Below are positions 1,753 to 11,338 of a stretch of 12,018 nt of DNA, piece by piece (the stretch's first letter is position 1; the number at the start of each line of letters is the position of its first letter). A model generated the notes under the pieces. The model was given only the letters and a program-made list of their open reading frames with translations. It ran no database searches and had not been told where the DNA came from. Both the position numbers and the translations under genes were made by a program. The DNA comes from Prevotella sp. UBA4376 (lineage in GTDB: Bacteria; Bacteroidota; Bacteroidia; Bacteroidales; Bacteroidaceae). The DNA is taken from NCBI GenBank assembly GCA_002391185.1, contig DGRY01000092.1:13953-25970 (forward strand), read 5' to 3'.

Positions 1753-1783
1753 CAGGCGCTTCGCTATTATCTCCTTCGTCTTA

Positions 1784-1813
1784 TGCTTGCACCGGCTTTG
1801 CCGACAGCAAGCA
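1784..1813. terminator. Stem-loop downstream of uvrA, possible terminator without T-tract
   Basis: Outer arms TGCTTGC (1784-1790) and GCAAGCA (1807-1813) pair perfectly. Inside them CGGC (1793-1796) pairs with GCCG (1800-1803) around a TTT loop, leaving small internal bulges. It lies 31 bp after the uvrA stop, a sensible place for a 3' hairpin, but no T-run follows on either strand. Intrinsic termination is therefore uncertain; it may only protect a 3' end. Confidence 0.4.
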
Positions 1814-1922
1814 CTCTGTCGATGACCTTCGGTTGAAGATTGAATATTATCATAAAGTTCAAAAAAACTCCTTCAAGGAAAGATGGCATCCGTTAATTAG
1901 TCGTTAATAAACTTCACAGCAA

Positions 1923-1992
1923 TAAACGGTAAACTATAAACAGTAAATAGTAATCATAAAGTTCAAAATTAAAACCTCAAAGTTCAAAGGTT
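1923..1992 (+). repeat. Degenerate heptad array (ten 7-bp units) abutting the next start codon
   Basis: From 1923 the sequence parses without gaps into ten 7-mers, mostly of the form T/A-AA-A-NNN: TAAACGG, TAAACTA, TAAACAG, TAAATAG, TAATCAT, AAAGTTC, AAAATTA, AAACCTC, AAAGTTC, AAAGGTT. It ends 5 bp before the ATG at 1998. Part of it (ATCATAAAGTTCAAAA, 1953-1968) is an exact direct repeat of 1849-1864. I see no TAnnTTTG promoter in 1753-1997, so this array occupies the space where a leader or promoter would be expected. Confidence 0.7.
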
Positions 1993-1997
1993 AATAA

Positions 1998-2774
1998 ATG
2001 ATAAAGAATTTATTATTTTCTCTGTTCCTCGCAATCGTCTTTCCTCTACTTTTAGAGGCACAGACACAACAACGCCCAGCTGTTATAGTATGCCCTGGCG
2101 GCAGCTATTGCTGGCTATCAAAGAAAACAGAAGGTTCAGAAGTTGCCTCTTGGCTACACTCTTTGGGCATGGATGCTTATGTATTACACTACCCCACAGC
2201 AGGTTGGGCAGGCTTTGCGTGGCACACACGATTTATTCTTCCAGGCAACCAATATCCCGACCAGCTTAATGCCTTTAGAAAACTATATCGCGAGCTACGC
2301 AAAAAAGGCTACAACAAAATTGGCGCAATGGGATTCTCGGCTGGCGGTCATCTTGTTCTTAATGCAGCCGAAGAAGATCTGCTTCCAGAAACACAAAATG
2401 ACAGCCTTTGGTTCTGTGCTCCAATATATCCTGTTGTCACTCTTCGTGAGAGCTGTGTCCATCACCGTTCACGCAGAGGACTTCTTGGCGAATACCGCTG
2501 GCGCAAACAACAATGGCGCGACTCGCTTTCCATGGAACTTCATGCCAACAGAGTCACATGTCCTGTGTTCATGATTAACTGTCAGGACGACCCAATTGTT
2601 GATTATCATAATTCACTACTGATGGACTCTGCACTTACAGCAAACTATAAGCCACATTTCTACAAACTCTTTCGTACAGGAGGTCATGGCTTTGGTACAG
2701 ATGCAAGCAAAACATCAAAAGAGGCAATAGAATGGAAAAAATTATTCTCTAACTGGATAAATAAGCTTTTATGA
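1998..2774 (+). CDS. Exported alpha/beta hydrolase (esterase-like)
   Basis: A 258-aa protein. Residues 1-21 form a signal peptide: Lys at position 3, a long Leu/Ile/Phe core, and a likely cut after EA at about 21. The mature part is an alpha/beta-hydrolase fold of the acetyl-esterase/BD-FAE type. PGG at 33-35 is the oxyanion-hole segment. GFSAGG places the nucleophile at Ser114. QDDPIVD gives the acid, probably Asp198, and GGHGFG gives His230. The triad is complete and the length is normal for a single-domain esterase. It probably acts in the periplasm or at the outer membrane on ester groups such as carbohydrate acetyl or feruloyl esters; the substrate is inferred from family resemblance only. 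The stop overlaps the start of the following acyltransferase gene (ATGA), so the two are probably translated together. No promoter is visible upstream; a heptad repeat array occupies the leader. Confidence 0.88.
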   Translation: MIKNLLFSLFLAIVFPLLLEAQTQQRPAVIVCPGGSYCWLSKKTEGSEVASWLHSLGMDAYVLHYPTAGWAGFAWHTRFILPGNQYPDQLNAFRKLYRELRKKGYNKIGAMGFSAGGHLVLNAAEEDLLPETQNDSLWFCAPIYPVVTLRESCVHHRSRRGLLGEYRWRKQQWRDSLSMELHANRVTCPVFMINCQDDPIVDYHNSLLMDSALTANYKPHFYKLFRTGGHGFGTDASKTSKEAIEWKKLFSNWINKLL

Positions 2775-3916: not shown

Positions 3917-3961
3917 ACATTACTGGTTATACCATAGAAGCAAGTAATAATATCTAACATG

Positions 3962-4205
3962 AATAAACCCACCTGTTTGCCTTATCAGTGGCAGCACCTC
4001 ATTGGTTATCCATGTTTAAACTCTCTTGCTTGTGGCAACTTCGAAGAAAGGATAAGCGAATAGAGTCCCGACTCGTTGATGATTACGACATTAGTTTTGT
4101 AGTTAGAACCAGTGCACTGAATCGGTGCAGTGGTTTTATCTTCATCATCAACATGATTTGCAATAGCATTTTTTGGTGCACAATAGCCCAAAGCCTTTGC
4201 CCCCC
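3962..4205 (-). pseudogene. Phage antirepressor (BRO-N domain) remnant, frameshifted and truncated
   Basis: Read leftwards from about 4205, the minus strand encodes AKALGYCAPKNAIANHVDDE, then DKTTAPIQ and INESGLYSLILSSKLPQA, ending in REFKH. These are the conserved blocks of the BRO-N domain found in phage antirepressors. At 4010-4013 one base has been lost from a His-Trp pair (CATGG instead of CATTGG). The original frame then hits a stop after one residue, while the shifted frame continues as WITNEVLPLIRQTGGFI, exactly the next conserved block of the family. Upstream of AKALGY the reading is disturbed at a run of six G (minus strand), and no start or earlier N-terminal residues can be followed. 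Downstream of GGFI the resemblance stops. What remains is about 80 codons of a domain usually near 100 residues in proteins of 200 or more. It is a dead relic of a prophage or integrated element. Assignment is from my knowledge of the family, not a search. Confidence 0.85.
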
Positions 4206-4236
4206 ACTTGCCCCTCTGGAAGTTTTACTGTCCTGA

Positions 4237-4252
4237 CCTCTCCGAAGAGAGG
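4237..4252 (-). other. Hairpin with C(UUCG)G tetraloop on the minus strand
   Basis: CCTCTC (4237-4242) pairs with GAGAGG (4247-4252). Read on the minus strand the loop is UUCG closed by C-G, an exceptionally stable tetraloop. A second small palindrome, GATTTT-G-AAAATC (4252-4264), adjoins it. No T-run follows, and no intact gene lies upstream on that strand, so the role is unknown. Confidence 0.5.
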
Positions 4253-4392
4253 ATTTTGAAAATCTTAATTTCTGTCATTGACTTAAAAATAAAAGAGTAA
4301 GGGGGTACCCACTTATGCACTTACCCACTTTGGACTTTGGACATTGGACATTTAGACATTTGGATTGGTTGTTTAGTCGTTTAGGTCTTCCC

Positions 4393-4440
4393 AATCTACT
4401 AATCCCCCAATCTCCTAATTTACTAATCTACCAAATCGTT
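4393..4440 (+). repeat. Degenerate octad array
   Basis: Six consecutive 8-mers beginning with AA: AATCTACT, AATCCCCC, AATCTCCT, AATTTACT, AATCTACC, AAATCGTT. The period is strictly 8 while the last bases of each unit vary. It sits inside the 25-bp inverted repeat and follows heptads at 4329-4349. No coding or promoter signal is seen in it. Confidence 0.65.
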
Positions 4441-4451
4441 ACTTAAATATT

Positions 4452-4493
4452 TTTATTATAATATATAATATAAATATTATATATTATAATAAA
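4452..4493. repeat. Perfect 20-bp AT-only palindrome with AA centre
   Basis: Bases 4452-4471 and 4474-4493 are perfect reverse complements separated by two A's, and all 42 bases are A or T. A transcript of either strand would form a 20-bp A-U hairpin with a minimal loop, and the DNA could extrude as a cruciform. It sits between convergent genes, so it may act as a transcription sink or a supercoiling relief point; neither is shown by the sequence. Confidence 0.8.
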
Positions 4494-4618
4494 GCATTTA
4501 TAATTTCAATTTTTCAGTTAGTATTGAAAAACACAGATGTCCAATGTCCAAAGTCCAAAGTTGATGAAACCAGGCGTGTGGATGGCTTGCATTTATTTGA
4601 AAAAAACATTGAAAATAT

Positions 4619-4662
4619 TTGCATAAACGAAATGTATTTCGTATCTATGCAACATAGTTGCA
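4619..4662. other. Two overlapping, mutually exclusive stem-loops
   Basis: Stem A is TTGCATA (4619-4625) with TATGCAA (4646-4652), continuing inward as ACGAAAT (4627-4633) with ATTTCGT (4636-4642) around a GT loop. Stem B is TGCAAC (4648-4653) with GTTGCA (4657-4662) around ATA. They share 4648-4652 and cannot form together. A further TGCAAC follows at about 4674. No gene is placed downstream to be controlled. Confidence 0.5.
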
Positions 4663-4705
4663 AGACAGATGAAATGCAACGAAATTTGCGGCCCTACTAA
4701 AGAAA

Positions 4706-4745
4706 AATTTTTTCTTAGTGCACGAGTAATTTTTTCTTAGTACAC
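4706..4745 (+). repeat. Two tandem copies of a 22-bp unit
   Basis: AATTTTTTCTTAGTGCAC at 4706-4723 recurs as AATTTTTTCTTAGTACAC at 4728-4745, one mismatch over 18 bases, period 22. The first copy together with the preceding CTAAAGAAAAA forms a near-palindrome. Nothing coding is nearby. Confidence 0.6.
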
Positions 4746-4899
4746 CCGCAGAAAAGCACGACAAAGGAAAAGGTTTTAAGGATGTGATAATTGTTTACAA
4801 CTTAAAAATTTTCATTTATCACCTCTCGCCGCTTTAGCGGACAGTAATAAAAAAATAAAGACATAGAATAAATACACATGATTCCTATGAAACAAAATT

Positions 4900-4942
4900 C
4901 CCCCTGACAGGATAATCTAACTATGAATATCTTCTCAGGGGG
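4900..4942 (-). terminator. Probable intrinsic terminator of the 4967-6301 gene
   Basis: CCCCCTGA (4900-4907) pairs perfectly with TCAGGGGG (4935-4942) around a 27-nt loop. On the minus strand the stem comes about 25 nt after the stop codon and is followed by AATTTTGTTTC, a fair T-rich tail. The G side is part of a run of ten G (4938-4947), so the stem can slide in register. The large loop makes this a moderate rather than strong terminator call. Confidence 0.6.
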
Positions 4943-4966
4943 GGGGGAAATAAGTTGTATATATGT

Positions 4967-6301
4967 TTAAAGCGATTCTAACGTTTCGGTAAATGCCTGA
5001 TGATACAAATGGAAAAGCAACAGGATTTCCTGACGGGTTTCTACAGGTTTATCCCATAATGACTCGATGCCCTGCTGGTGAGCCGCAATGCTCCTGGCAG
5101 AACGAAGAATCTTTCGTTTGTTGTTACGCTCACGAATCTTGTCTCCCTGGATATCATCCTGAGTCATGTAACTGAGCATACGAAGTTTCTTCATGAAACT
5201 TTCATAACGATTGAACAATAATGCCTGCTGCATCATCTTTTCGGGATTACTATCCAAATCTGACATATCGAGCATTCCTTCCATATTTTCGTGGCTCCAG
5301 TCTGCCTCGTTCAACCAATACCATTGGAAAAACATTTTCGTCTCAAGTGTGATAAGGTTGTTTGCCAAAGTTTCCTCGCCATCGGCATCAATATCAATAA
5401 ACTTTTCGAAGGCAAAACGAGCCAAAGCAACAGCATTACACTCGGGCATTCCCTCTACATCAAAGGTGTTGTCGGTGAGTGAAACCGTCTGTCGCATATT
5501 GCGGAACTTTATGAAAACTGTGCGTGCTCCCTGCATAAGCTGACGAAGACTACCTTCGGAAGGTATCTCGCCGACAACAGCCAGGTGATCGTGCTGATTA
5601 CGAACTGTGAGCAGTCCATCTTCGCGCCAGATACAGATATAGTTTAATCGATCATTATCAAGCACTATTGAAAAACGGTCTTTATCAGGAGTTCCAACAA
5701 AAGAATAGCTCCAGTTTTCTGCCTTTTTAGCATCAATATCCACATCATCACAAACACGAACTCCATTCTCGTCAAGAAGTTGGAAACCTGTGAATGGTAT
5801 CTGAATATGCAAAGAGAAAGGCTCACCATCATCTGGAGTTAGTATCATTTCTACAGTCTTACCATCCTCAAACTCGCTACGGTTTATCACGTAGAGGTCA
5901 TTATCTGATGAAATAGCCTTAGGAACATTTACATCACCATCAGGCCAATAAATATTAAATGTAAGCGTTTTATCGTCCTCGCTTTCAAGAGAGAGCAGCT
6001 CCTTTGCACCGAGATCAAGATAATATACTTCGACAGGTTCAACTTCCTCATCACCATCGCCAAGCACCTGCATGCGAATATGTCCAAGCATAGGATCGTC
6101 TTCCCAGTCATCCGCTGTACCATCAAGGGTGTTGAAAACGGCAAAGCTTAGGCGCGATTCAACACGTTCACCATTTGTACGACATAATATATATCGCACT
6201 TCCTTGGGCTCAAAAATAGGTTCTACTATGAATGGATTTTTACTTGTTACGGGGTATTCAATTTCTGTCCACGAAGTGGCATGAAGTTTGTTATCTGACA
6301 T
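4967..6301 (-). CDS. Acidic cytoplasmic protein of unknown function
   Basis: A 444-aa protein that I do not recognise. It has no signal peptide, no transmembrane segment, no nucleotide-binding loop and no clear catalytic motif. The first roughly 300 residues are strongly acidic and alternate in a way that suggests beta structure, with segments such as EDDKTLTFNIYWPDGDVN and DKDRFSIVLDNDRLNYICIW. The last roughly 130 residues look helical and include a basic stretch, DKIRERNNKRKILRSARS. Codon use looks like its neighbours. The ATG at 6301 is chosen because a good -7 box lies 22 bp upstream and leaves room for a short leader. It diverges from a metallochaperone GTPase gene across 134 bp, so shared control is possible, but that does not assign a function. 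It is probably a lineage-specific conserved protein. Confidence 0.85.
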   Translation of the reverse strand: MSDNKLHATSWTEIEYPVTSKNPFIVEPIFEPKEVRYILCRTNGERVESRLSFAVFNTLDGTADDWEDDPMLGHIRMQVLGDGDEEVEPVEVYYLDLGAKELLSLESEDDKTLTFNIYWPDGDVNVPKAISSDNDLYVINRSEFEDGKTVEMILTPDDGEPFSLHIQIPFTGFQLLDENGVRVCDDVDIDAKKAENWSYSFVGTPDKDRFSIVLDNDRLNYICIWREDGLLTVRNQHDHLAVVGEIPSEGSLRQLMQGARTVFIKFRNMRQTVSLTDNTFDVEGMPECNAVALARFAFEKFIDIDADGEETLANNLITLETKMFFQWYWLNEADWSHENMEGMLDMSDLDSNPEKMMQQALLFNRYESFMKKLRMLSYMTQDDIQGDKIRERNNKRKILRSARSIAAHQQGIESLWDKPVETRQEILLLFHLYHQAFTETLESL

Positions 6302-6323
6302 ATAATCTTTTAATTTGGGAGTG

Positions 6324-6355
6324 CAAAATTAATAAAAAAAAAGGGTAAAACGAAA
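6324..6355 (-). promoter_or_regulatory. Bacteroidota promoter for the acidic protein
   Basis: On the minus strand TAATTTTG (6331 to 6324) matches the TAnnTTTG -7 consensus exactly. TTTC (6355 to 6352, followed by G) lies 20 nt upstream in the -33 position. The predicted transcript starts near 6318, giving a leader of roughly 17 nt. Confidence 0.65.
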
Positions 6356-6369
6356 TTGTTTCGAAAATG

Positions 6370-6401
6370 TTTCGCAGTTTGGCACAATGTTTGTACCTTT
6401 A
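6370..6401 (+). promoter_or_regulatory. Bacteroidota promoter for the metallochaperone GTPase
   Basis: TTTC (6370-6373, followed by G) and TACCTTTA (6394-6401) are separated by exactly 20 nt. The -7 box deviates from TAnnTTTG only at the last base. The predicted start is near 6406, inside the palindrome at 6402-6419, about 30 nt before the ATG at 6436. A weaker than consensus -7 would suit a regulated gene. Confidence 0.55.
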
Positions 6402-6419
6402 CATTGTAATTGTACAATG
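6384..6419. promoter_or_regulatory. Candidate operator: three CATTGTA half-sites
   Basis: CATTGTAATTGTACAATG (6402-6419) is a perfect 7-bp inverted repeat with a 4-base centre. A third half-site in reverse orientation, ACAATGT (6384-6390), pairs with ACATTGT (6401-6407). The half-sites lie across the -7 box and predicted transcription start of the GTPase gene, where a repressor would block initiation. Because COG0523 GTPases are often controlled by zinc-responsive Fur-family repressors, Zur is one candidate regulator; the motif itself does not prove this. Confidence 0.5.
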
Positions 6420-6435
6420 ATTATATGTTATATTT

Positions 6436-7623
6436 ATGAATAATTCAGTAACTCCTGTGTTGCTGCTCACAGGTTATTTAGGCAGCGGTAAGACAACTTT
6501 GGTAAACAGAATCCTTAAAAATGAGAAAGGAATAAAGTTTGCCGTTATAGTGAACGATATTGGTGAAGTGAACATTGATGCCGACCTTATAGAAGAAGGT
6601 GGTATCGTGGGACAGCAGGACGATTCATTGGTAGCTCTACAAAACGGCTGTATATGTTGCACACTCAAAATGGATCTTGTGCAACAGCTATCAGACATTG
6701 TTAATACTAAAAAATTCGATTACATAGTGATTGAGGCAAGCGGTATATGCGAACCAGCACCTATTGCACAGACTATCAGCGTGTATCCAACAATGTATCC
6801 AAACATGGCAGAAAAGGGCTATGCTAAGCTCGACTCTATTGTTACCGTGGTTGATGCTCTCCGCATTCGTGATGAGTTTGGCCTCGGTGAAGACCTACTT
6901 AAAAAAGATATTGGCGAAGAAGACCTTGCAAGTTTGGTCATACAGCAAATAGAGTTCTGCAACATTATTGTATTAAATAAGGTTGACGAGGTTAGTGCCG
7001 AAGAACTTGAGAAAGTGAAGCTCGTCATTCGCAAGATTCAGCCAAAGGCACAAATCATGGAATGTAACTATGGTGATATTGAACTGAGTAAGATTCTAAA
7101 CACCGATATGTTTGATTTTGACAAGGTGGCAACATCGGCTGCATGGATTGCAGCTATGGAAGAAGATGATGATGAGGAGGAACATGAACACGAAGAACAT
7201 GAGCATCATCACCACCACCATCACGGACTTGAAAACGAAGAAAGTGGTGAGGCTTTAGAGTATGGTATTGGCACATTCGTATATAAGGCTCGTCGCCCTC
7301 TTGACCTGAGTCTTTTTGATGAGTTTGTTGCCCGCAAATGGCCAAAGAGTGTTATACGATGCAAGGGTATCTGCTATTTCCAAGATGAGCGCGATACATG
7401 CTATGTGTTTGAACAAGCAGGCAAACAAATGAACATTCGCAACGCAGGACAATGGTATGCCACAATGCCAAAAGACGAACTTGAAGCATTTAAGCAGAAA
7501 AATCCTGGTTTGCAACGTGATTGGGATGACACATACGGCGACCGCATGCAAAAACTTGTGTTCATAGGCAAGGACATGGATCGAGACGAGATATGCAAAC
7601 AACTCGACGGATGCTTATGTTAA
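6436..7623 (+). CDS. CobW/COG0523-family metallochaperone GTPase with His-rich loop
   Basis: A 395-aa G3E GTPase of the CobW/YciC/ZigA type, proteins that use GTP hydrolysis to deliver metal, mainly zinc, to client enzymes in the cytoplasm. Walker A GYLGSGKT is at 13-20. The family metal site GCICC is at 71-75 (Cys72, 74, 75). The EASGICEP segment is at 100-107 and the guanine-specificity motif NKVD at 181-184. Residues 244-268 form an acidic, His-rich linker with ten His between 250 and 263, a probable metal-binding or sensing loop. The CobW C-terminal domain runs from about 278 to 395 and ends DGCLC. Length and motif order are typical of YciC-like members. It has its own promoter with an operator-like palindrome, which fits metal-regulated expression. 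The actual metal and client are not readable from the sequence; zinc is the likeliest. Confidence 0.93.
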   Translation: MNNSVTPVLLLTGYLGSGKTTLVNRILKNEKGIKFAVIVNDIGEVNIDADLIEEGGIVGQQDDSLVALQNGCICCTLKMDLVQQLSDIVNTKKFDYIVIEASGICEPAPIAQTISVYPTMYPNMAEKGYAKLDSIVTVVDALRIRDEFGLGEDLLKKDIGEEDLASLVIQQIEFCNIIVLNKVDEVSAEELEKVKLVIRKIQPKAQIMECNYGDIELSKILNTDMFDFDKVATSAAWIAAMEEDDDEEEHEHEEHEHHHHHHHGLENEESGEALEYGIGTFVYKARRPLDLSLFDEFVARKWPKSVIRCKGICYFQDERDTCYVFEQAGKQMNIRNAGQWYATMPKDELEAFKQKNPGLQRDWDDTYGDRMQKLVFIGKDMDRDEICKQLDGCLC

Positions 7624-7632
7624 GCATCCGTC
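7606..7632 (+). terminator. Perfect 12-bp hairpin spanning the stop codon of the GTPase gene
   Basis: GACGGATGCTTA (7606-7617) is the exact reverse complement of TAAGCATCCGTC (7621-7632), with a TGT loop at 7618-7620. The stem covers the last four or five codons, and the second arm begins with the TAA stop. No T-run follows (next bases ACCTTCG), so it may end the mRNA with help, block 3' exonucleases, or affect termination of translation. Confidence 0.6.
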
Positions 7633-7648
7633 ACCTTCGTAAGTGGAG

Positions 7649-7686
7649 AAAAAAAACGGCTGTCAACAAATAATTGCCGACAGCCG
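7649..7686 (-). terminator. Strong intrinsic terminator on the minus strand
   Basis: CGGCTGTC (7657-7664) and GACAGCCG (7679-7686) form a perfect 8-bp GC-rich stem with a 14-nt loop. On the minus strand the stem is followed at once by eight T (7656 to 7649). On the plus strand only a weak GTTTTC follows several bases later, so the orientation is clear. No annotated minus-strand gene lies upstream, which implies a transcript not otherwise accounted for. Confidence 0.8.
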
Positions 7687-7831
7687 AATCATGTTTTCTG
7701 CGGATAAATTATAAGATTCAACCAATATACTTAGATTCAATCACGAATCATCGTATGCAAATCAATCATTGTTGACTCAATAATGCTGAAATGATATTTA
7801 ATGGTTTAAATGTCGTTAACTACTTTTAACG
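7649..7831 (-). ncRNA. Candidate small RNA of about 183 nt, promoter to terminator
   Basis: On the minus strand an exact promoter (7867 to 7836) is followed after about 5 nt by a series of stem-loops and then an intrinsic terminator ending in eight T (7656 to 7649). Hairpins, in transcript order: CGTTAA-AAGTAG-TTAACG (7831 to 7814); ATTTAA-ACCA-TTAAAT (7811 to 7796); CATTATTG with CAACAATG, one mismatch (about 7784 to 7766); GATTC-GTGATT-GAATC (about 7750 to 7735); and the terminator (7686 to 7657). The only ORF inside worth mention is 10 codons long (7769 to 7737, MIDLHTMIRD) with no ribosome-binding signal. It lies between two plus-strand genes and is antisense to neither. I do not recognise the fold as 6S RNA, SRP RNA, tmRNA or a known riboswitch; a trans-acting sRNA or a leader-peptide RNA are the main options. 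Confidence 0.65.
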
Positions 7832-7835
7832 GCCA

Positions 7836-7867
7836 CAAAGGTATAGAATTATTTTGAATATCCCAAA
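7836..7867 (-). promoter_or_regulatory. Consensus Bacteroidota promoter of the candidate small RNA
   Basis: Minus strand: TTTG at 7867 to 7864, exactly 20 nt, then TACCTTTG at 7843 to 7836. Both boxes match the consensus perfectly, making this the best-matching promoter in the window. It points away from the plus-strand hydrolase gene, whose own promoter lies at 7903-7934. Confidence 0.75.
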
Positions 7868-7902
7868 TATATATGCAAAAAATTTTTAAACAATATGCCA
7901 TA

Positions 7903-7934
7903 TTGGTGTAAATAGAAAAAAAGTTATACCCTTG
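7903..7934 (+). promoter_or_regulatory. Promoter of the cytoplasmic hydrolase gene
   Basis: TTGG (7903-7906) and TACCCTTG (7927-7934) are 20 nt apart; each differs from consensus by one base. The box ends four bases before the ATG at 7939, so a transcript starting 4-6 nt after the box would have almost no leader. Confidence 0.55.
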
Positions 7935-7938
7935 CAAC

Positions 7939-8643
7939 ATGACAGATAAAATTCAATTACACTTGCCAAACGGAGAAGAGCGCGAATGCTCTATTAGCGC
8001 AGACGAAAATCCGCAAGCTATTCTTATTCAATTAGTTGAACGTAAAGAAGTGTCCCAACTTGAAGACGAGTTAGAGTTGATTCACAATGCATCAAAGAAA
8101 AAAATCATCATTGCCAACATAAAAATTATTGACTGGTGTAAAGAACTAATGCCATGGAACGACGAAGCTGTTGATAGACGACCAGAATCAGGTACTCTTG
8201 CAACAGGAATTCTCAATATGATTGAACTGCAGCTTATACCTACGCTGCACGCTAAATACGGCAAGCTGCCATGCATCATCGGTGGCTATTCGCTTGGTGC
8301 TCTCTTTTCGCTATGGGCAGCAACACAAAGCACTGTCTTCTACGGCGTAGCAGCAGCATCACCATCGGTGTGGATAAAAGACTGGATGAAGTTTGCTGCT
8401 GATAATCCAATAAAAGCACAGAAAGTGTATATGAGCCTTGGCGATAGTGAGCATCACACAAAAAACAAATACATAAAGCAGGTGGCAAACAACATAAGAG
8501 AATTCCACCAGATGCTTGTAAAACAGCTATCAAAAGACAACACCATTCTTGAATGGAATCAAGGAGGTCATTTTCAGGATTTTGCTCAACGCACAGCAAG
8601 AGCGTTTTCCTGGGTAACCTTCAACGCTCTCTTAAAGAAATAA
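7939..8643 (+). CDS. Cytoplasmic alpha/beta hydrolase (putative esterase)
   Basis: A 234-aa protein with no signal peptide or membrane segment, probably cytoplasmic. GGYSLGALFSLW puts the nucleophile at Ser118 in a G-x-S-x-G elbow. SPSVW at 141-145 is typical of the putative-esterase (Esterase D/Fes-like) branch. GDSEHH offers the acid at Asp169 and NQGGHFQD the base at His211, so the triad is complete. The first 60 residues, before the core, are rich in charged residues and lack a recognised domain. The ATG lies only four bases from its -7 box; no alternative start is better placed, and the next Met (residue 71) would remove part of the fold. Its last 58 bp overlap, on the opposite strand, the 3' end of the MATE gene. 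The substrate is unknown. Confidence 0.85.
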   Translation: MTDKIQLHLPNGEERECSISADENPQAILIQLVERKEVSQLEDELELIHNASKKKIIIANIKIIDWCKELMPWNDEAVDRRPESGTLATGILNMIELQLIPTLHAKYGKLPCIIGGYSLGALFSLWAATQSTVFYGVAAASPSVWIKDWMKFAADNPIKAQKVYMSLGDSEHHTKNKYIKQVANNIREFHQMLVKQLSKDNTILEWNQGGHFQDFAQRTARAFSWVTFNALLKK

Positions 8644-9944
8644 TAATATAATGCACCTGCTACTGAAAGCCCTATAGGAAAAGAACACCACACACCAAGG
8701 AGGCCACCTTTGAAAGTTATTCCAAAGAGATAAGCCAGTGGCAACGATGTGACAAAATACGACAAGAAAGCCACAAGAACCAAAGGCTTCACATTTGACA
8801 ACCCACGAAGTGAGTTGGAAAACACACATTGCAAACCATCAGGAATCTGATAAACTATCAACGGAATGATAACGGTGGCAACAATAGCTGACACCTCTGC
8901 TGAATCCGAGAACAACCACCCTATTTGGTTGCGCAAGAGAAATACTGGTACAGCTACTATAAAGGCAGTTATCATGCTTAGATGAAAACCAGCCCATGCT
9001 GTAGGCACAATTTTTTCATATTGTCGAGTGCCGTTAAACATGCTGATACGTATGCTAACTGCAGCTGCAATGGCATAATACACCTGGAAAAACAAATTAC
9101 TCACCGATAGCATAATTTGATGACCAGCAAGCTCGCTTGCACCTATCCATCCAACAATGATACTTGCCAATGACCATGCCCCCGACTCCATACCCATTTG
9201 CATAGCCAACGGCCAACAAATCCTATTTATACGTAACTGTGCAGCCTTTGTTATCTTTGCTTTGAGAAAAGCCTCTTTTATATGCGAATATCTACGAGTA
9301 AAGAAAAATACCGCTATTATAGTCACGCACATAAATATGCGTGAAAGAAGTGTTGCAACACCAGCACCCAAAAGGCCTAACTCTGGCATCCCGCAAGCAC
9401 CATAAATCAACAACCAATTACCGAATATATTGATCACGTTTCCGGAGAGAAGAATCCACATTGGCGTTCTGGTATCTGTGGTTCCATCAGCAGTTTGCTT
9501 AAATACGTTAAACCAACACACGAACGGGATAGAAAGCCAGTTAACAATATAATACGGACGCATAATAGGGATTATCTCCTTGGGCTGCCCCATTTTGTCA
9601 AGGAAGAAATAAAGCACACCATACACAAACGTAAGAAGTATGGCAACACCTGTATTGGAAAACAGAGCATTACGCAAGATATCACCTATTTCTCCAAAAT
9701 TATTTCTTCCATAACTGTTACCCACAAAAGGAGTAATACCATAAGAAAACCCCATAGCAACAAGTATTCCAAGCATAAATATCTGTCCCACGAAAGCTGC
9801 TGCCGCCAGCTCCGTAACAGAATGATGACCAATCATGATGGTGTCGGCAAAGCTAAGTATAATAGTACCTATCTGACCTACAACCATGGGTATGCCAAGA
9901 GAAATTATCGGTTTATATTGCGATTCGTATATCCTAAAATCCAT
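8586..9944 (-). CDS. MATE-family multidrug/cation antiporter
   Basis: A 452-aa inner-membrane protein with about 12 hydrophobic segments, the size usual for MATE exporters, which expel organic cations or drugs in exchange for Na+ or H+. TM1 is near 15-39, with the conserved Asp34 in ADTIMIG. The repeated MATE motifs appear as NIFGNWLLIYG near 172-182 and GLLGAGVATLLSR near 190-202. It resembles the NorM/DinF-like members common in Bacteroidota. The ATG at 9944 lies inside the last 40 bp of the symporter gene, so the two are probably transcribed together and translationally coupled; no separate promoter is visible. Its final 19 codons are antisense to the end of the convergent hydrolase gene. 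Which compounds it exports cannot be inferred. Confidence 0.92.
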   Translation of the reverse strand: MDFRIYESQYKPIISLGIPMVVGQIGTIILSFADTIMIGHHSVTELAAAAFVGQIFMLGILVAMGFSYGITPFVGNSYGRNNFGEIGDILRNALFSNTGVAILLTFVYGVLYFFLDKMGQPKEIIPIMRPYYIVNWLSIPFVCWFNVFKQTADGTTDTRTPMWILLSGNVINIFGNWLLIYGACGMPELGLLGAGVATLLSRIFMCVTIIAVFFFTRRYSHIKEAFLKAKITKAAQLRINRICWPLAMQMGMESGAWSLASIIVGWIGASELAGHQIMLSVSNLFFQVYYAIAAAVSIRISMFNGTRQYEKIVPTAWAGFHLSMITAFIVAVPVFLLRNQIGWLFSDSAEVSAIVATVIIPLIVYQIPDGLQCVFSNSLRGLSNVKPLVLVAFLSYFVTSLPLAYLFGITFKGGLLGVWCSFPIGLSVAGALYYYFFKRALKVTQENALAVR

Positions 9945-11338
9945 AATTCAGCAAAAGTAATAAAGCCGTTAAGCATCAGTAATTCATAACCAAAATTATA
10001 GTTCCATAATAGCTGTGCAGAGATATCAAGCACAAAACACAACACAGGAGAGGCAACACACACATAAGGCACAAACCTGTCGGGGGTATTCCGTTTGGTT
10101 AGAAGTCCATAGGCAAACAAGCCAAGCAGCGGACCGTAGGTGTAGCCACATAATATATATATGGCATCTATAATGCTGGTAGAATTTATAACCTTGAAAG
10201 CAAGGATAAACACCACAAACACTAATGCAACAGCAAAGTGAACTCTTTTCCTGAGCCGTTCGTCGTTCTCTCTGTTCATAATATCAACACAGAAACTTGT
10301 TGTTAGGGCAGTCATAGCCGAGTCGGCCGACGAGAATGACGCAGCCACAACACCAATTGTGAACAGCACAACAACAATGTTACCCAACTCGCCCGTAGCA
10401 GCAAACATACACAACAGGTCGTCGCTTTTCTCAGGAAGCGCCACTCCTTGCTGCCGGGCAAGCATCATGAGTAACACACCCAACGACAGAAAAAGCAGAT
10501 TTACAGGAACAAACGCAAATCCATAAGTGCACATGTCCTTTTGAGCATCTCTTAATGTTTTACATGTGAGATTCTTTTGCATCATATCCTGATCAAGCCC
10601 CGTCATTACCAATACAACAAAGATTCCACTAAGGAACTGTTTAAGAAAATGTTGTTTTGAACGCCAGTCACCAAACTCAAATATCCTGCTGTGACTGTCG
10701 GCACAAATAGCAGAAACAGCCTCAGAAGAATTCATCCCCAGAGTTTCTACCACATGATAGATTATCAACACAAGAGCCATGATCATACACAGAGTCTGAA
10801 AAGTATCGGTCCACACAAGTGTTTTTATGCCTCCTCTTCTGGTGTATAGCCATATTAGCATAACCATAACTACCACCGTGAGAACAAAGGGAACACCTAA
10901 TGGGGCAAGCACAAATGTGTGCAAGATGAAACACACAACATAAAACCTGACAGCAGCACCAATGGTTTTTGAAAGCAAAAAGAAAAATGCTCCAGTCTTG
11001 TAAGCCCTCTCCCCTATTCGCTGTCGAAGATAACTGTATATTGTTGTGAGATTAAGTCGATAATAAACAGGTAACAACACAAAGGCTATGAGGAAATAGC
11101 CTAAAATGAAACCTATACACATCTGTATATAAGTCATATCGGTTGCCATCACAAGTCCAGGCACCGACACAAACGTGATACCCGATATAGAAGCACCCAC
11201 CATACCAAAAGCCACCATATACCATGGAGAATTACGATTACCACGATAAAAAACATCATTGCTGGATCTGCGGGCAGTAAGTCGGCTTATCAAGAATAGG
11301 AAGCCGAAATAGGCCAATATAGTTATAAGAATTATCAT
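9905..11338 (-). CDS. Sodium:solute symporter (SSF family)
   Basis: A 477-aa inner-membrane protein of the SSF family, which couples solute uptake to Na+ entry. About 13 hydrophobic segments are present. GGIKTLVWTDTFQ near 169-181 is the family signature, and ASFSSADSAMTALTTSF near 333-349 contains the Ser/Thr residues expected at the Na2 sodium site. SSNDVFYRGNRNSPWY near 25-40 is the usual cytoplasmic loop after TM1. I place the start at the ATG at 11338. The frame stays open up to a GTG at 11368, but a perfect -7 box (11353 to 11346) lies between, so the upstream codons would be promoter DNA. The solute is unknown; Bacteroidota relatives are variously linked to sugars, sialic acid or amino acids. 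The MATE gene follows with a 40-bp overlap. Confidence 0.92.
   Translation of the reverse strand: MIILITILAYFGFLFLISRLTARRSSNDVFYRGNRNSPWYMVAFGMVGASISGITFVSVPGLVMATDMTYIQMCIGFILGYFLIAFVLLPVYYRLNLTTIYSYLRQRIGERAYKTGAFFFLLSKTIGAAVRFYVVCFILHTFVLAPLGVPFVLTVVVMVMLIWLYTRRGGIKTLVWTDTFQTLCMIMALVLIIYHVVETLGMNSSEAVSAICADSHSRIFEFGDWRSKQHFLKQFLSGIFVVLVMTGLDQDMMQKNLTCKTLRDAQKDMCTYGFAFVPVNLLFLSLGVLLMMLARQQGVALPEKSDDLLCMFAATGELGNIVVVLFTIGVVAASFSSADSAMTALTTSFCVDIMNRENDERLRKRVHFAVALVFVVFILAFKVINSTSIIDAIYILCGYTYGPLLGLFAYGLLTKRNTPDRFVPYVCVASPVLCFVLDISAQLLWNYNFGYELLMLNGFITFAELWILGYTNRNINR

Follow-up and report, generated by a model that had tools for sequence, protein, structure and literature searches.

A probable intergenic small RNA gene on the minus strand between cobW and an esterase-like gene in Prevotella

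Bacteria of the genus Prevotella are common in the rumen and gut. In the 12,018-nt stretch of Prevotella sp. UBA4376 analysed here (the window, G000:C121:13953-25970 of a metagenome assembly), an intergenic stretch of 315 nt lies between cobW and an esterase-like gene, both on the plus strand, and carries promoter-like and terminator-like signals on the minus strand. The question raised by this locus is whether these signals belong to an RNA gene of their own, as proposed by an earlier sequence-only reading. The features of the locus are collected in Table 1. The list of open reading frames of the window returned no minus-strand frame of at least 60 amino acids across 7649-7867. Beyond the terminator, the minus strand runs antisense to cobW, and the next minus-strand gene with support from a sister species starts at 6301. 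With no same-strand gene immediately beyond the terminator, a leader or attenuator was considered unlikely. The CobW GTPase is His-rich and probably handles zinc; a functional link of the RNA to this metal GTPase was not supported, the two being simply adjacent.

Table 1. Coordinates of the predicted RNA, its signals and the neighbouring genes, numbered from the first base of the window.
Feature	Positions	Strand	Remarks
cobW, CobW/COG0523-type GTPase gene	6436-7623	+	flanking gene; PF02492 and PF07683
Esterase-like gene	7939-8643	+	flanking gene; PF00756, 26 bits against a cut-off of 22
MATE transporter gene	8586-9944	-	PF01554; upstream on the strand of the RNA; overlaps the 3' end of the esterase-like gene
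Predicted noncoding transcript, about 185 nt	7649-7833	-	start deduced from promoter spacing; 149/181 aligned bases identical in the sister copy
-33 element TTTG, sigma-ABfr type promoter	7864-7867	-	pattern match; kept in the sister copy
-7 element TACCTTTG (TATCTTTG in the sister copy)	7836-7843	-	pattern match and sister alignment
4-pair helix, 5' side	7753-7756	-	partner 7727-7730; base-pair probabilities in both species
4-pair helix, 3' side	7727-7730	-	one pair changed from A-U to G-C in the sister copy
Most conserved stretch, directly upstream of the terminator	7687-7721	-	34/35 identical in the sister copy; candidate functional or pairing segment
Terminator stem-loop	7657-7686	-	13 pairs (7 G-C, 2 G-U), 4-nt loop
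Terminator T tract	7649-7656	-	eight T; six in the sister copy

On the minus strand, TTTG and TACCTTTG are separated by a spacer of 20 nt (7867-7836), as the earlier reading had stated, and this arrangement fits a Bacteroidota housekeeping promoter. The Bacteroides consensus consists of TTTG at about -33 and TAnnTTTG at -7, according to the available text of PMC7366714. The exact pattern TTTG-N19..21-TANNTTTG matched the window at this promoter alone, with 0.31 matches expected by chance; since 52/200 shuffled windows held at least one exact match, the promoter taken alone is weak and not decisive. In the genome of the organism itself, the exact pattern was found 281 times against 42 times in the reversed control, and most exact matches there are therefore likely to be real. 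A general sigma-70 scan of the window, whose consensus differs from the Bacteroidota type, returned three promoters against 6.8 expected, with no excess. The transcript was expected to end in an 8-bp GC stem followed by eight T; the terminator turned out to be real and stronger than claimed (Table 1), and an intrinsic terminator also characterizes the sRNA class defined in PMC7366714.

The two signals were then scored jointly. A unit had to combine an exact promoter with a perfect stem of eight or more pairs (at least four of them G-C) and a T run, placed 40-400 nt beyond the promoter. None of 400 shuffled windows contained such a unit. The 80 cobW loci of related DNA (794,493 bases) contained four, against none in the reversed sequences, corresponding to the sister copy of the element, a tRNA-Met gene (L043), a tRNA-Val gene (L056) and a leader-like unit (L050). 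Six more were returned when the same rule was applied to further fetched loci, which give no rate because they had been partly picked by promoter: a tRNA-Met gene (L015), two tRNA-Ser genes (L101), the sister copy again (L176) and the units of L166 and L168. The L166 unit shows tRNA-like ends around a masked middle and received no ARAGORN call, while that of L168 is false, its promoter match falling inside a 338-codon open reading frame; it represents one of the five further events outside this locus. Five of the eight distinct outside units are thus tRNA genes and one is a leader; the other two are either not confirmed as RNA (the masked tRNA-like unit of L166) or false (the coding match of L168). 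The element at 7649-7867 is intergenic, unlike the false L168 match. Judged from these sequences, the combination of promoter and terminator appears to mark mostly known RNA units elsewhere in related DNA. An exact promoter with a strong terminator within 400 nt may then serve as a cheap test, as it is rare (4 in 794 kb) and, outside coding genes, coincided with tRNA genes or a leader wherever this could be checked.

Some related units were recorded in passing. The L050 unit (10838-11010, in a related genome) is composed of a promoter, a short frame with four histidines, a terminator and then the start of the next gene; we take it to be a probable his operon leader, the gene after the terminator being presumably hisG-like. 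Inspection by eye of L012 (1501-1535) and L018 (1501-1526) showed, about 150 nt or less beyond each promoter match, a terminator-like hairpin with a T run and no obvious gene between the signals, possibly further small RNAs, which the strict rule did not score. A tRNA-type promoter class was considered and set aside: a tRNA was present in 5/17 loci recovered by blast, yet the exact spacer gave one in 1/5 other loci (L186, which coincides with L010). A complete tRNA was found in 0/30 promoter loci of the own genome (L166 being masked), and the class remains a hint.

A second copy of the element was available in an uncultured Prevotella from sheep (L019), the sister species, whose cobW, esterase and MATE are 92%, 75% and 85% identical to those of the window. 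L019 is the only one of the 80 cobW loci with the esterase and MATE neighbours, several loci ending soon after cobW. Its minus strand retains TTTG-N20-TATCTTTG and a terminator with six T. The 20-nt spacing, whose conservation in relatives had been named as a check on the proposal, was recovered both by pattern and by MAFFT, while the global alignment places a gap at the -33 TTTG. The two G-U pairs of the terminator stem are A-U pairs in L019, and pairing is thus preserved. The predicted promoter and terminator and the absence of a long open reading frame are all retained in the sister species.

Along the transcript, 82% of the aligned positions were identical, as compared with 333/712 (47%) at the fourfold-degenerate sites of five neighbouring genes, a strong conservation against this background, with binomial probabilities of 5.6e-23 at p = 0.468 and 8.6e-11 at p = 0.6. 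Upstream of the RNA promoter, just 24/71 positions aligned with L019 in the global alignment. Two control intergenic regions compared between these two species showed 104/123 (6302-6435) and 253/291 identical positions, the latter being C121:15705-16006 (window 1753-2054, with 57 coding bases included), a region that presumably separates a UvrA-like gene from the next hydrolase-like gene. The longest near-perfect run, with at most one mismatch, measured 51 in this second control and 47 at the element. Further control rows were left out as long and probably holding uncalled genes (676/811 and 910/1095) or as tiny (10/13), and all agree with the controls. As the control intergenic regions are equally conserved, conservation was dropped as proof of an RNA and denotes constraint on the region, not specially on an RNA.

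The element has a G+C content of 0.32, and its length with no long open reading frame falls within the 30-500 nt noncoding range of the class described in PMC7366714. Its minimum-energy fold reached -49.6 kcal/mol over 196 nt, largely due to the terminator, a value below the limit of -0.05 per nt given in the same source. Compared with shuffles, the folding z-score was -3.96 for the whole element (-4.94 in L019) and dropped to the shuffle level, -0.15 (-0.63 in L019), once the terminator was removed, and the whole-element score therefore stems from the terminator. The three or more hairpins described in the sequence-only reading do occur in the minimum-energy fold, while a specific multi-hairpin structure did not hold up, as the fold without the terminator resembles shuffles. 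Base-pair probabilities above 0.15 in both species were confined to the terminator, two adjoining pairs and one 4-bp helix. A multi-branch fold produced by RNAalifold showed 100% pairing and was rejected, being derived from the same two sequences. The two-sequence consensus contained two doubly changed pairs, a value reached by 129/500 shuffles; compensatory changes in the stems, which would have strengthened the proposal, were thus not in excess in this comparison of two sequences. The direct repeats at 7734-7742 and 7715-7723 had been put forward as pairing sites, a role that was not supported, as only the copy at 7715-7723 is kept in the sister species.

Relatives of the element were searched by several routes. 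Rfam returned no family at the gathering score, with a best weak match of E 1.3, and ARAGORN found no tRNA or tmRNA gene. Blast yielded short pieces only, nearly all promoter-like, in 40 relatives and in 398 genus genomes. In the 398 genus genomes, the element with its promoter matched 17 genomes, the own included; 16/17 outside matches (one in another family) span positions 1-58 of the query only, which is the promoter plus no more than 13 bases of the transcript, and 1/17 (L017) covers transcript positions. This L017 stretch (1501-1533) matches window 7742-7772 over 33 bases at 88%, beside a promoter-like TATCTTTG, perhaps by chance.

A covariance model built from the window and L019 was run on two overlapping draws of genus genomes (398 and 368, with stricter filters), on 241 family genomes and on the 80 cobW loci. 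Among all these, strong matches were limited to the window and L019, with no second place in the own genome (G000) or in the sister genome (G414). A 33-bit match in L019 was discarded as the same palindrome read on the other strand, and a weak match in L131 read as a terminator-like hairpin. Five of the six weak matches inspected as alignments match chiefly through the terminator hairpin. L187 gave a weak full-length match, and the exact promoter occurs nowhere in its locus; no promoter-terminator unit was present in the weak-match loci L131-L137, L139, L173 and L174. The plasmid and phage collections held no copy, nor did the viral contigs, which were searched with one exact 26-base pattern. 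Under a looser terminator rule applied to the 450 nt after cobW, a minus-strand terminator was detected in 11/79 other loci and a promoter match in one (L066); the two occurred together in 0/79, several of these loci ending early (e.g. L022, L085). Since the draws did not exhaust the genomes of the genus, more relatives may exist. The search of Rfam and related genomes advised by the earlier reading thus returned no known family, and conservation so far in one sister species. Its central proposal, a separate, lineage-specific RNA gene on the minus strand, is well supported by sequence: the signals are kept in L019, their combination elsewhere in related DNA marks mostly known RNA units, and no relative was found in Rfam or the genomes searched.

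On this basis, the reading that we favour with some confidence is a stand-alone intergenic sRNA gene of about 185 nt, probably acting by base-pairing in trans. Transcription by RNA polymerase carrying the housekeeping sigma factor of Bacteroidota would begin near 7833 on the minus strand and end at the intrinsic terminator. The predicted noncoding RNA has a stable hairpin at its 3' end and an A+T-rich body that folds only loosely. Pairing in trans with mRNAs would most likely involve 7687-7721 or further sections of the body that have little structure. We infer both the transcription of the element and its pairing in trans.

The main rival is a cis-antisense RNA that would pair or interfere with a cobW-esterase read-through mRNA, tuning the expression of the esterase or of cobW. 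We regard it as unlikely, and it owes its place to the terminator scan, which scored no plus-strand terminator between the two genes. The little room left in L019 from the RNA promoter to the esterase start points the same way, and antisense control is known in Bacteroides for DonS, as described in the accessible portions of PMC7366714. However, the RNA stops short of both the esterase start codon and the cobW coding region, the esterase owns a near-consensus -7 element (TACCCTTG at window positions 7927-7934), and the cobW-esterase order recurs in L019 only among the 80 cobW loci, not all of which extend far enough beyond cobW. A broader version, in which a lineage-specific antisense or trans RNA that arose in one small Prevotella clade would tie the expression of the CobW GTPase to the adjacent esterase and transporter, e.g. 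through occlusion of a cobW-esterase read-through mRNA, is rather improbable.

The transcript might instead be translated into a very small protein, for instance from a minus-strand frame of about 20 codons ending in the terminator stem. Both species retain the frame LVESYNLSAENMIRLS with an identical stop, and by eye the lone change within 7687-7721 is synonymous for this frame; however, no ATG is shared near the frame start (TTG is the start common to both), the two species differ in the C-terminal residues, six frames offer many chances, and the frame MIDLHTMIRD is not kept in L019, so that we consider a coding role quite doubtful. We attach little likelihood to the view that the terminator belongs to a longer antisense RNA coming from the MATE gene and that the promoter match is accidental. 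This gene lies upstream on the same strand with no other minus-strand terminator from 8586 to 7687, and exact promoter matches can indeed be accidental, as in L168, but L019 keeps the promoter core and its spacing, and intergenic promoter-terminator combinations are rare and mostly RNA units. Read-through from the MATE gene and an own sRNA promoter can both hold. Very little likelihood is left to a hairpin acting as a two-way terminator or 3' stabiliser of the cobW mRNA with no minus-strand gene: the inverted repeat of this hairpin does follow the cobW stop on the plus strand, preceded by eight A and with TTTT a few bases after, but the plus-strand T run begins 7 nt past the stem, the scan scored no plus-strand terminator there, and the conserved minus-strand promoter would be left unexplained. 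A diverged member of a known RNA family, e.g. 6S RNA, seems extremely unlikely. The length of 6S RNA is similar to that of the element, yet the Rfam search returned no family at its cut-off. RF00013 itself had no match in the own genome and was also silent on the Bacteroides control, so the Bacteroidota 6S RNA cannot be judged by this model.

A stand-alone sRNA would fit, by analogy, with the promoter-plus-terminator intergenic sRNAs of Bacteroides thetaiotaomicron, of which 49 with high confidence, having a start site and a terminator, are reported in the available part of PMC7366714, 27 of them strain-specific. The element resembles members of this group such as GibS, as far as that text describes them, in promoter type, intrinsic terminator, intergenic position and low G+C content; unlike them, it is known from sequence alone, and no sequence relation is known, the comparison having been made through Rfam only. 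MasB of the same species is likewise intergenic and narrowly conserved, whereas it measures about 100 nt and has a known regulator and target, a likeness drawn by description only from the accessible part of PMC10994844. Like the DonS cis-antisense RNAs of Bacteroides, the element is encoded against the strand of its neighbours, but in the portions of PMC7366714 at hand the DonS RNAs are 78-128 nt long and divergent to susC homologues, while the element lies between cobW and esterase genes. No Prevotella small-RNA map was found in a narrow literature search, and the available parts of PMC7160235 and PMC10861873 contain no Prevotella counterpart of the element. The element is an ordinary case, a probable small RNA common to two species, and would probably add to the known class of intergenic sRNAs, so far in one species and one sister.

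Finally, a few observations concern the surroundings of the element. Window positions 3917-4966 correspond to a break in gene order with respect to the sister species, the preceding DNA being collinear with G414:C5 and the later genes with G414:C24. A 13-pair hairpin without a strong T run spans the cobW stop codon (7605-7633) and is lost in L019. A perfect 7-1-7 inverted repeat, CAATATG-C-CATATTG, occupies 7891-7905, in the gap separating the promoter of the RNA from the esterase start; it overlaps the likely -33 region of the esterase, and its stretch is absent from L019. The geometry of this repeat resembles, in our estimation, that of a Fur-family operator.
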